Assembly: GCF_004365705.1 (NCBI RefSeq)
Contig: NZ_SOBN01000003.1
Location: 186,001-250,000 of the forward strand
Reading direction: 5' to 3'
Length of the DNA: 64,000 bases
Source of the DNA: Streptomyces sp. 846.5
GTDB lineage: Bacteria > Actinomycetota > Actinomycetes > Streptomycetales > Streptomycetaceae
In this document: positions 28,416 to 49,948 of the stretch, piece after piece
How positions within the stretch are numbered: position 1 is the stretch's first letter
Layout of the letters: each line of letters opens with the position of its first letter
The notes under the pieces: model-generated
What the model saw: only the letters and a program-made list of their open reading frames with translations
Told to the model about the DNA's origin: nothing
Databases searched by the model: none
Translations under genes and position numbers: made by a program

Positions 28416-28430
28416 CTGACGGAGCGTCAG
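28416..28430. promoter_or_regulatory. CTGACGGAGCGTCAG palindrome upstream of the P450 gene
   Basis: A 15-bp dyad with arms CTGACG/CGTCAG, 40 bp before the P450 start. The same palindrome recurs at the ALDH, fadE34, chsH3 and F420-oxidoreductase promoters. The protein that binds it is unknown. Confidence 0.75.
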
Positions 28431-28446
28431 ATCTGCCTTAGACCGT

Positions 28447-28460
28447 AGTAACGGGTTCTA
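28447..28460. promoter_or_regulatory. KstR-like box (13 of 14 positions)
   Basis: AGTAACGGGTTCTA differs from TnnAACnnGTTnnA only at the first base. It lies between the divergent P450 and fadA5 genes. Confidence 0.6.
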
Positions 28461-28517
28461 GTCCGCGCAAGAGCCTTGCGTGACAGTGCTCACGGCGAAT
28501 ACAAAGGGGGCCAGAAC

Positions 28518-28537
28518 TAGAACGCGTATCAGTTCTC
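28518..28537. promoter_or_regulatory. KstR-like element upstream of fadA5
   Basis: TAGAACGCGTATCAGTTCTC starts as a KstR box with GTA for GTT, and also forms AGAAC-N8-GTTCT. It is 61 bp before the thiolase start and closely matches 33032-33051 before the ALDH gene. Confidence 0.55.
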
Positions 28538-28578
28538 TTCGGCGTCCCACGGACGCTGGAGCTTCCGGAGGGCGAGTC

Positions 28579-46382: not shown

Positions 46383-46429
46383 GTTGGAGCGTGTGGGCCG
46401 CCGGGGTGACCGGAGTTGAAGGGGAGCGC

Positions 46430-48613
46430 ATGGCCATAGGGATCAGCGAGGACCATCGCCAGGTGCAGGCGGCCGTGCGGGGGTGGTTGGAGCGCGAGGT
46501 TTCGCCGGAGGTTGTGCGGGACGGGCTTGCCGAGGACGGGAAGGCGCGGGTGTGCTCCGGACGGGCGGCGTGGTGGGGCGGGTTGGCCGGGCAGGGGTTG
46601 TTGGGGCTGCACCTGGCCGGTGAGTACGGCGGGGGTGGGGGAGATCTGCTCGATCTGGCCGTGGTGGTGGAGGAGGCCGGACGTGCCGTACTGCCGGGTG
46701 CCTATCTGCCGACGGTGCTTGCGTCCACTGTGCTCGCCGCCGCCGGTGGGGCGGAGGCCAAGCGTCCGTTGGCCGGGTTGGCCGACGGGAGTTGCACCGG
46801 GGCGGTCGCCCTGGAGCCCGACGGGCTGCGTGCCGAGCCCGTCCCCGGGGGATGGCTGCTGAGCGGGGACGCCGGGCCGGTGCTCGGGGGCGACGAGGCT
46901 GATGTGGTGCTGCTCGCCGCCATGCTGGAGGGAGGGGGAGGAGAGTCCGCCTGGTTCGCGGTGGACGCTGAAGTGTTGACGGTACGTTCGCTGCCGGCGC
47001 TGGACCTGACTCGGGGTCTCGCGACAGTCGGGGTCGGGGCCGGCGGACTGCTGCTCAGTGAGGAGCAGCGGCTCGCGGTGGACGCCGAGCGGGTCGGTTC
47101 GCTCGCGTCGGTGGTGCTGGCGGCGGAGGCCTGCGGGATCGCGGGGTGGGCGCTGGACACGGCCGTCGGTCATGCCAGGGTCCGCGAGCAGTTCGGGCGG
47201 CCGATCGGGCAGTTCCAGGCGGTCAAGCACCTCTGCGCCTGGATGCTGGTCCGTGCCGAGGCGGCGAGGGCCGCGACCTGGCAGGCGGCGCGCGACCCGG
47301 AGCCGCTGGCTGCGGCGGTCGCGGCCGCGCTCGCGCTGGAGGCGGCGTTCGAGAACGCCAAGGACTGCATCCAGGTCCTCGGCGGTATCGGGTTCACCTG
47401 GGAGCATCCGGCGCATCTGCGGCTGCGGCGGGCAGTGACGTTGCGTCAGCTCATCGGGTCCGCAGCCGCGGCCTCGCTGTACGGGCAGGTGGCCGGGCTT
47501 GCCGCCGGGCGTGGGTTGGACCGGCCGGTGTTGGAACTGCCGCCCGAGGCCGAGGAGTTCCGCCCTGCTCCGCGTGCCGCCGCGGCTGCCGTGCAGGGGC
47601 TTGAGCCGGCTGAGCAGCGGCGCAGGCTGGCTCCGGGGGGCTGGACGGCTCCGCATCTGCCGCCGCCCTACGGGCTGGGGGCCGACGCGCTGCGCCAGTT
47701 GGTGGTGGAGCAAGAGCTGCGCGCGGCGGGGGTGGTGCTGCCCGATCTCACCATCGGCGCCTGGGTGGTGCCCTCGATCGTCGCCCATGGCACACCCGAG
47801 CAGCGCGAGCGCTTCGTGATGCCGACGCTCAAGGGTGAGCTGACCTGGTGTCAACTCTTCTCCGAGCCCGAGGCCGGCTCGGATCTGGCGTCGCTGCGCA
47901 CCCGCGCGGTCCGGCTGCCGGACGGACGTTGGCGGGTGGACGGGCAGAAGGTGTGGACGTCGAGTGCGCGCACCGCCGACTTCGGGATCCTGCTGGCGCG
48001 GACCTCGCCGGACCGGCCCAAGCATCAGGGGTTGACCTACTTCCTTGTCGATATGAAGACGACTCCTGGAATCGACATCCGGCCACTGCGCGAGCTCACC
48101 GGTGACTCGGTCTTCAACGAGGTCTTCCTCGACGGCGTGATCCTCCCGTCCGACGCGGTGGTCGGCGAGGTCGACGGCGGGTGGCGGGTGGCCAGGCACA
48201 CGCTGGGCCATGAGCGGGTGCACATGGCGGACTCCAGCCCGACCGCCGACGCGGTGCGCAGGCTCCTGGCACTGCCGGGCGCGGACGGCGAACGCAGGGC
48301 CCGGCTGGGCCGGTTGGTCGCCGTCGAGCGGGTGCTGGCCTGCATCGATCTCAGAACGGCGCTGAGCAGCCTGGACGGTCTCGATCCCGGGCCCGGCGCC
48401 AGCGTCCGCAAGCTGGTGTCCGCTCCGCACGCCCAGCAGGTCGCCGAACTGGTGCTGGAGCTGTGCGGTCCGGCGGGCGCGGTGGCCGAAGGCGTGGGCG
48501 GGCAGGCGGCGCGGGCCTTTCTGATGTCGCGCTGTCTGACCATCGCGGGTGGCACCACGCAGGTGCAGCTGAACGTCGTGGCGGAGCGGATCCTCGGTCT
48601 GCCGAGGGACTGA
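46430..48613 (+). CDS. fadE34: FadE34-like double-domain acyl-CoA dehydrogenase
   Basis: The start is ATG 46430 behind GGGGAG, giving 727 residues, twice the usual acyl-CoA dehydrogenase length. Domain 1 (about 1-370) has [18 protein letters not shown] and the C-terminal helical part [17 protein letters not shown] with [20 protein letters not shown]. Domain 2 (about 400-727) has [31 protein letters not shown] and a closing [20 protein letters not shown]. This is the plan of mycobacterial FadE34, a FAD enzyme for the C5 steroid side-chain CoA ester. A KstR box and a CTGACGG site overlap the promoter. Confidence 0.88.
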
Positions 48614-48663
48614 CCGCCGTCGAGGGAGTGACCATGACCACCATGGACCGGAGGAGTGAGGCA

Positions 48664-49857
48664 ATGCCTGGAAAGAGCTACCTCGTCGGCGTCGGTATGA
48701 CGAACTTCGAGAAGCCGGAGAGCCGGGACTGGCAGTACTGGGACATGGCTCGCGAGGCGGGGCAGGCTGCGCTGGCCGATGCCGGGATCGACTACGCGCT
48801 GGTCGAGCAGGCGCCGGTCGGGTACTGCCAGCAGCAGTCGACAGCCGGCCAGCGGGCCGTCTACGAGCTGGGCCTGACCGGGATCCCGGCCTACAACGTC
48901 AACAACAACTGCGCCACCGGCTCCACGGCGCTGATGATGGCCCGTCAGTTCGTCGCGGGCGGGATCAGCGACTGCGTCCTCGCGCTGGGCTTCGAGAAGA
49001 TGAGCCGCGGCGCGCTCGGCGCGGGTGCGGGGGCCGGCGACTTCGCGACCAGCCCGGTGGCGCGGCACTACGGGGTGATGGCGGCCAGGCACGGCTTCGC
49101 GGCGACGCCGCCGACCGCGCAGATCTTCGGCAACGCCGCCCGGGAGCACATGGAGCGCTACGGCACCACCGCGGAGCAGCTGGCCCTGGTCGGGGTGAAG
49201 AACCACCGCCACTCCGCCGCCAACCCCCGGGCCCAGTTCCGCGACAGCTACACCCTGGAGGAGGTGCTGGCGTCGAGGACCATCCACGAGCCGCTGACCA
49301 AGCTCCAGTGCTCGCCCACCTCGGACGGTGCGGCGGCGGCCGTGGTCGTCTCGGAGCGGTTCGTGGAGCAGCACGGCCTGCACGACCGTGCCGTGGAGAT
49401 CCTGGGCCAGGCGATGACCACCGACACCGAGTCCAGTTTCGCCTCCGGATCGTCCATCGACGTCGTCGGCAAGCCGATGAGCCGGGCCGCGGCGCTGGCG
49501 GTGTACGAGCAGTCGGGGCTCGGCATCGAGGACGTGGACGTGGTCGAGCTGCACGACTGCTTCTCCGTCAACGAGCTGCTGACCTATGAGGCGCTGGGCA
49601 TGTGTGCGGACGGGGAGAGCGGAAAGCTGGTCGCCGAGGGGGCGACGACCTACGGCGGGCGCTGGGTGGTGAACCCGTCCGGGGGACTGATCTCCAAGGG
49701 GCATCCGCTGGGCGCCACCGGGTTGGCGCAGTGCGCCGAGCTGGTGTGGCAGCTGCGCGGCGAGGCGGAGGAGCGGCAGGTCGCGGGCGCGAGGGTGGGC
49801 CTGGCCCACAACATCGGGCTGGGCGGCGCCGCCGTGGTGACCATGCTGCGGCGCTGA
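48664..49857 (+). CDS. ltp1: Ltp1-like lipid-transfer thiolase (SCP-x type)
   Basis: The start is ATG 48664 with GGAGGAG seven bases upstream, giving 397 residues; ATG 48634 is also possible. It opens [30 protein letters not shown] and has [18 protein letters not shown] with the catalytic Cys, [12 protein letters not shown], and [17 protein letters not shown] with the catalytic His. These are Ltp1 hallmarks. The protein should cleave beta-keto or retro-aldol type side-chain intermediates without the third thiolase Cys of FadA. It follows fadE34 by 50 bp and is probably cotranscribed. Confidence 0.85.
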
Positions 49858-49918
49858 CCTTCCGGTGGCCGGTCCGGTGGCTCGGGGGAGTTCTCAAGGG
49901 CCGCGCGATGCGTTATAC

Positions 49919-49948
49919 CTGACGGTGAGTCAGATGTAACACGTTCTA
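49919..49948. promoter_or_regulatory. CTGACGGTGAGTCAG plus KstR box upstream of chsH3
   Basis: CTGACGGTGAGTCAG (49919-49933, one mismatch) is one base before TGTAACACGTTCTA (49935-49948, exact KstR match). They lie about 205 bp before the chsH3 start, in a 295-bp gap with no other gene. Confidence 0.82.

Follow-up and report, generated by a model that had tools for sequence, protein, structure and literature searches.

Results

Dyad copies and KstR-like boxes in a steroid-catabolism region

We analyzed a window of 64,000 nucleotides (positions 186,001 to 250,000 of contig NZ_SOBN01000003.1; C3:186001-250000) from the 9.03-Mb genome of Streptomyces sp. 846.5 (G000), focusing on a short palindrome, here called the dyad, that stands ahead of several genes and in part beside boxes of the KstR type. 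Family-library scans of the encoded proteins identified the window as a steroid-catabolism region. A cytochrome P450 gene (27143..28387, minus strand; PF00067, E 2.7e-22) and a gene for a steroid 3-ketoacyl-coenzyme A (CoA) thiolase of the FadA5 type (28480..29748, plus strand; NF005889, 677 bits, cut-off 515) are divergent. These are followed by genes for an aldehyde dehydrogenase (33096..34607, plus strand; PF00171, E 2.4e-153), an F420-dependent LLM oxidoreductase of the Rv3520c type (40293..41309, minus strand; TIGR03559, 434 bits, cut-off 335), a double acyl-CoA dehydrogenase of 740 amino acids (46391..48613, plus strand; acyl-CoA dehydrogenase domains, below every NCBIfam cut-off), and a MaoC-type hydratase (maoC; 50153..51016, plus strand; PF01575 and PF22622). 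The double acyl-CoA dehydrogenase is called fadE34-type, since from its size and architecture we take it to be FadE34. The window further codes for a lipid-transfer thiolase, an alcohol dehydrogenase and a putative open reading frame labelled sdr (52191-53135). A TetR gene with TetR_N and TetR_C_20 domains (34983..35642, minus strand) has KstR (NF033703) as its top family, scoring 193.7 bits to the NCBIfam KstR equivalog, below the cut-off of 280; it is probably KstR by best family and position, and hence is named kstR-like. The closest named loci, compared by the fadE34-type protein, are those of Streptacidiphilus carbonis (84% identity) and S. jeojiense (88%), from which the genome's own family (f1) was taken as Streptomycetaceae; a neighbouring family, f3, is probably Catenulisporaceae.

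The preliminary description gave the dyad as CTGACGGnnCGTCAG at five positions. Two of these are exact matches, namely CTGACGGAGCGTCAG (28416..28430) between the P450 and fadA5-type genes, and CTGACGGTGCGTCAG (46365..46379) ahead of the fadE34-type gene. The other three carry one mismatch each: GTGACGGGGCGTCAG (33065..33079) ahead of the aldehyde dehydrogenase gene, CTGACGGTGAGTCAG (49919..49933) ahead of maoC, and CTGATGGACCGTCAG (41329..41343), which stands alone ahead of the F420-oxidoreductase gene. The motif is better described by the consensus (T)CTGACGnnnCGTCAG(A). One further exact copy, on the minus strand at 39100, had been overlooked, and copies with one mismatch to CTGACGnnnCGTCAG lie at 509, 40282, 47435, 53132 and 57168; none of these six adjoins a KstR box.

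The strict KstR pattern TnnAACnnGTTnnA had five matches in the window. As promoter boxes we chose to drop the intragenic match at 51938 and to add 28450, giving five KstR-like cores (28450, 32968, 35726, 46352 and 49938). The box AGTAACGGGTTCTA (28447..28460) lacks the first T of the consensus and has its AACNNGTT core at 28450. The boxes TAGAACGTGTTCTA (32965..32978), TGCAACGAGTTCTA (46349..46362, ahead of the fadE34-type gene, ending two bases before the dyad), TGTAACACGTTCTA (49935..49948, ahead of maoC) and a fourth at 35723..35736, upstream of the kstR-like gene with no dyad nearby, all match TnnAACnnGTTnnA. At three of the five chosen cores a dyad lies within 45 bp (naive binomial chance 4e-5), with centre-to-centre distances of 30.5 bp at fadA5, 16.5 bp at fadE34 and 15.5 bp at maoC, and both orders of the two elements are present, as had been reported. 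The pairing claimed for four promoters thus stands at 28416, 46365 and 49919 and fails at 33065, where the neighbouring element does not follow the KstR consensus. That element is a perfect 20-bp palindrome, TAGAACTGATATCAGTTCTA (33032-33051), which we rejected as a KstR box, as its KstR-like half-sites are 8 bp apart instead of 2 and it does not match TnnAACnnGTTnnA. It sits between the dyad and the proper KstR box at 32965, which is about 100 bp from the dyad, centre to centre.

With up to three mismatches, the window contained 86 dyad matches, as compared with 55 +/- 9 in shuffled sequences, none of 100 shuffles reaching 86; a looser pattern, TGACGNNNCGTCA with two mismatches, showed no enrichment there (49 against 47). 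Relative to the genome rate, three exact dyads were found against about 0.24 expected, and 11 with at most one mismatch against about 3.5. The window is thus denser in dyads than the genome as a whole, and the motif is not equally common elsewhere. The idea that it is special to this locus did not hold, as the dyad occurs genome-wide.

Distribution of the dyad across the genome

We found 34 exact copies of CTGACGnnnCGTCAG in the genome, in comparison with two of a reversed control pattern; with one mismatch the counts were 497 and 41. Spacers of 0-14 bp gave 54 matches in all, of which 34 had the 3-bp spacer, the only one favoured (binomial P 9e-27 under equal frequency of all spacers). Predicted promoters held 22 of the 34 exact sites, as compared with 20% of random positions; a promoter was defined as -250 to +100 of a gene start in a rough gene call based on GC content, and the promoter label of the 39100 copy is doubtful. 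The remaining exact sites were intragenic (7), at gene 3' ends (4) or elsewhere (1). We scanned 20 proteins encoded beside such sites, five of which had no family. The families included a cholesterol-oxidase type, two AMP ligases, a thiolase, two amidohydrolases, an SDR, a luciferase-type monooxygenase and an FAD dehydrogenase, together with KdpD, NlpC/P60, glycosyltransferase, PorA, isochorismatase and ammonium transporter. Judged by eye, these genes seem to be biased toward lipid functions.

Several individual sites were observed besides. At L173:4001-5397 (G000:C1:4304086), a dyad of the form TCTGACN5GTCAGA ends 3 bp ahead of the predicted start of a gene with a ChsH2-type oligonucleotide-binding (OB) fold, a zinc ribbon and a MaoC domain, hinting that side-chain (igr-type) genes may also be targets. 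The same form occurs at L174:4001 and L170:4001 (own genome; a Streptomyces) between a response-regulator-like gene and a longer gene, by eye of the 2-oxoacid:ferredoxin oxidoreductase type. In a Streptomyces stretch (L199:16666-18569), two luciferase-type monooxygenase genes with an SDR gene in between are each preceded by a pair of dyads, 40 bp apart at one gene and 62 bp apart at the other.

Conservation of the dyad and of the pair

Conservation in relatives, on which the preliminary description had made its proposal depend, was found for both the dyad and the pair. Upstream of fadE34 at the Streptomyces loci L034-L069, the KstR core was present in 36/36 and the dyad, with no more than one of its ten positions mismatched, in 34/36. 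When these 36 regions were aligned on the box, the sole strongly conserved block was tCTGACCTTCCGTCAGAtTG.AACGTGTTCTAcTCT. The order of dyad and KstR box there is opposite to that in the window, most promoters again having a centre distance of 16.5 bp, and two Streptacidiphilus loci have the KstR box first. Counted by orthologue, the dyad was present at 35 of 37 fadE34 genes. None of 41 fadE34 loci outside Streptomycetaceae showed a dyad in the 220 bp upstream; seven of them, three being of the Catenulispora type, have a KstR core.

Both elements were present at 19 of 21 maoC orthologues, and in the two others (L050 and L056) the dyad lies somewhat farther upstream; in Streptomyces the two elements at maoC are 63-79 bp apart, start to start. 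At the F420-oxidoreductase, where the dyad had been described as standing alone, all 18 orthologues have the dyad and none has a KstR core. The dyad was seen at 0/10 sdr and 1/14 adh orthologues, and in 4.8% of random 270-bp windows. At L044, L053 and L062 the lipid-transfer gene either does not follow fadE34 immediately or is set off by a gap of its own, and it carries its own dyad. A composite of the dyad, 0-30 bp and AACNNGTT occurred in 102 of 200 family genomes (reversed control, 4), including all 14 of the own genus; part of the 102 arise by chance, since the AACNNGTT matches listed are in many cases unlike KstR sites. Inspection by eye showed a composite resembling that at 28416 and ending in GTAGTAAC or GTAATAAC in 13 of the 14 genomes of the genus. 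These distributions indicate that the pairing of dyad and KstR box is old.

An artefact, in which the dyad owes its frequency to stop codons (TGA/TCA) or terminator stems, could account for the four exact sites at gene 3' ends, the several window copies at gene ends and a dyad inside a longer hairpin at L003. It would not explain the spacer specificity, the promoter bias and the conserved promoter blocks, and actinobacterial genomes lacking the candidate regulator considered below have a mean of only 0.7 copies. For the promoter copies it is contradicted by their conservation, and we consider this explanation extremely unlikely.

Search for the regulator

Using a TetR hidden Markov model (HMM) built from 30 loci, we found no TetR gene with a dyad within 400 bp in L001-L198 minus the 30 training loci. 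To the eye, the Streptomyces reading frames upstream of maoC resembled response regulators, an EF-hand protein and spurious frames. Further dyads were present in a 55-kb Streptomyces stretch (L199-L201), where visual inspection revealed no TetR. A scan for autoregulation of 122 of the 138 TetR upstream regions in the genome returned only L125 and L267 as having, within about 150 bp of the helix-turn-helix (HTH), a dyad that deviates in no more than one base; a two-mismatch dyad lies 132 bp ahead of the TetR gene of L231. As isolated genes of local scope, these were set aside as candidates. At L125:1200-1560 the TetR gene and its one-mismatch dyad have what we read as a P450-like frame beside them, and a separate palindrome, TTTATATCGGGGACCCGATATAAA, lies just downstream of the dyad; this may be a further case of a dyad paired with the site of a local TetR.

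These searches bear on the possibility that many paralogous TetR proteins share similar operators, each dyad serving a local regulator. The hundreds of one-mismatch dyads in the genome and the sites at L125 and L267 would agree with it. The fact that just two of the 122 TetR genes have such a dyad, and that the TetR HMM found no TetR at the other dyad loci searched, makes it very unlikely.

A candidate was found among the 16 TetR genes outside the autoregulation scan by way of another genome, G038, in which six of nine exact dyads lie within 25 kb of one gene for a TetR protein of 217 amino acids. In the genome under study this gene is single-copy, at C1:3463285-3463929. The encoded protein has an N-terminal TetR HTH that only just passes its threshold (PF00440, 24.1 bits against 24) and a C-terminal ligand-binding domain of the TetR_C_38 type (PF19352, 227 bits against 23.9). 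Its structural model is helical and confident (predicted local distance difference test, pLDDT, 93), and the closest solved fold is EthR, with a template modelling (TM) score of about 0.78. We rejected an orthologous relationship with EthR, as the identity is only about 19% and the sequence match is limited to the HTH region. Among the 120 homologues listed of 3377, names were general or missing. The neighbours in the own genome code for an F420H2-dependent quinone reductase and an acyl-CoA dehydrogenase. The gene start reads CTGACGnnATGAC in 54 of 57 loci and is probably leaderless; in the own genome the start codon overlaps a dyad with two mismatches, and other imperfect dyads lie upstream of the gene in 19 of the 57 loci.

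Co-occurrence and clustering of the dyad with the TetR_C_38 gene

We compared the presence of the TetR_C_38 protein with the number of dyads in 61 relatives. The protein was found in 37/37 own-family genomes (in pieces in G007), 14/14 genomes of f3 and 0/10 others, with dyad counts of 2-96, 5-20 and 0-2, respectively. A class-wide set of 246 actinobacterial genomes comprised 22 own-family carriers, 24 other carriers and the 200 non-carriers already mentioned for their low mean. Outside the own family, at least six exact dyads were present in 15 of 24 carriers, as compared with 1 of 200 non-carriers (Fisher P 2e-16, relatedness ignored). The association was also seen within families, again with relatedness ignored: in f16, carriers had 6-14 dyads and non-carriers 0, 0, 0, 1 and 10, the last in a genome 68% complete (P 0.008), and in f20, six strong carriers had 1-9 dyads in comparison with 0-5 in eleven non-carriers (P 0.007). 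Five genomes of f15 (G235, G257, G274, G289 and G304; 4.3-5.5 Mb) have 109-218 exact dyads each (control 0-1), and each has a TetR_C_38 match of 43-46% identity.

In several genomes besides G038, dyads were found to cluster at the gene. Those within 25 kb of it numbered 5/33 in G017, 5/35 in G015, 2/3 in G234, 2/9 in G406, and one each in G328 and G347; G061, G062, G064 and G065 have two each within 50 kb. In the own genome, the count is two of the 34 exact dyads at up to 25 kb from the gene, rising to three at 26 kb.

A number of observations weigh against a link between this protein and the dyad. The carrier contrast takes no account of relatedness; the carrier survey and the dyad counts were taken as the same draw of genomes, with 66 handles visible in both, and the survey scored at most 12 candidates per genome, so that carriers may have been missed. 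The dyad at the gene's own start is imperfect, and its retention may have other causes. No cluster was found at the gene in G063, G318 and G277, and in G045 only 1 of 20 dyads lies within 50 kb of it (P 0.18). The carriers G244 and G253 have no exact dyad and G277 has one, three distant matches occur with 1-3 dyads, and low-count own-family carriers (one dyad in G103 and G130, two in G024 and G027) are listed among the exceptions. Conversely, the non-carriers G363 (the 68% complete genome) and G365 have 10 and 5 dyads. As a separate observation, G253 contains a TetR_C_38 frame with one internal TGA (G253:C74:75367-75993), which would fit joint loss of the regulator and its sites.

A further point against the link concerns the own genome, where three exact dyads lie no farther than 15 kb from the kstR-like gene, the highest number among the 138 TetR genes, as compared with two for the candidate; KstR itself, or a KstR variant, that also reads the dyad stays a rival for this reason. 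Set against it are the dyad-bearing, KstR-core-free promoters of the F420-oxidoreductase, the G038 cluster, which surrounds a different TetR gene, and the Catenulispora-type loci L070, L071 and L093, which retain the KstR core at fadE34 and have no dyad. The published KstR motif, as given in the available part of the report, is TnnAACnnGTTnnA (PMC1995591). We regard a role of KstR at the dyad as scarcely probable.

Alternatively, the dyad may belong to some other regulator, the TetR_C_38 gene co-occurring with it through shared lipid-catabolic neighbourhoods and lineages. The link rests on genome comparison and the survey covered the TetR family; together with the discordant genomes G244, G253, G363 and G365, this leaves such an explanation an appreciable, if small, probability. 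It is opposed by the association outside the own family and inside f16 and f20, and by the clustering of dyads at the TetR_C_38 gene in several genomes. Taken together, the data show a genuine dyad, which resembles the operator of some regulator distinct from KstR. The preliminary description had proposed an independent regulator acting on the same genes, and the conserved pair, the KstR-free promoters of the F420-oxidoreductase and a TetR gene other than kstR all agree with it.

Discussion

The system suggested here, a TetR repressor with its operator, would be of a known kind, and several relatives are described in the literature, cited below from the available parts of the papers. KstR (Rv3574) of mycobacteria, with motifs at kstR/fadE34 and Rv3520c (PMC1995591), is likewise a TetR repressor whose short palindrome stands at genes for lipids and cholesterol; it differs in its motif, and here a second palindrome adjoins and the dyad occurs at the Rv3520c-type gene with no KstR core. 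BkaR (Rv2506) also represses acyl-CoA-type genes through a palindromic operator, whose core is GTTA(N)T(N4)A(N)TAAC (PMC3920632). Mce3R, a mycobacterial TetR-type repressor of genes linked to cholesterol metabolism, has a double TetR motif and two 25-bp nonpalindromic sites 53 bp apart (PMC11667970), and SCO3201 of Streptomyces coelicolor, a TetR regulator tied to lipid changes, has the site TGGCAGATTCTGCCA (PMC7324645). Among the papers listed by searches of open-licence literature, no title or beginning of an abstract names the dyad motif; logos, motifs containing N, closed papers and S. coelicolor locus tags lie outside this scope, and an earlier published description may exist. The double control by dyad and KstR box is possibly new.

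We think it likely that a second TetR-type repressor, the TetR_C_38 protein, has the dyad as its operator and would form a double lock with KstR. A TetR dimer would occupy the two half-sites CTGAC(G)...(C)GTCAG at the promoter and block transcription, until released by a ligand. Because of the target genes, this ligand may be a CoA thioester, perhaps derived from lipids or sterols. At fadA5/P450, fadE34 and maoC, the repressor would bind beside KstR, and full transcription would require both to leave, and at the F420-oxidoreductase it would act alone. Since about 1.5 helical turns separate the sites, the two dimers would lie on different faces of the DNA and could occupy it together, an arrangement that speaks for a double lock rather than mutual exclusion.

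On balance we also lean toward a wider role, in which the TetR_C_38 protein would repress lipid, steroid and F420-dependent redox genes on a global scale in Streptomycetaceae, f3 and some other families, acting through the operator (T)CTGACGnnnCGTCAG(A) and in a double lock with KstR, with the operator having spread in f15 to its 109-218 exact sites per genome. The Rv3520c-type gene seemingly changed hands, because its promoter carries a KstR motif in mycobacteria (available part of PMC1995591) and the dyad without a KstR core here; the TetR_C_38 protein would have taken over such genes from KstR.

This work pairs a TetR gene of all 37 sampled own-family genomes with a probable operator and its target promoters, and illustrates how site counts and gene presence over many genomes can serve to assign an operator to an orphan TetR. 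It predicts that two repressors hold the steroid side-chain genes in these bacteria, which would bear on strains used for steroid biotransformation and on the rewiring of the control of sterol catabolism between mycobacteria and streptomycetes.

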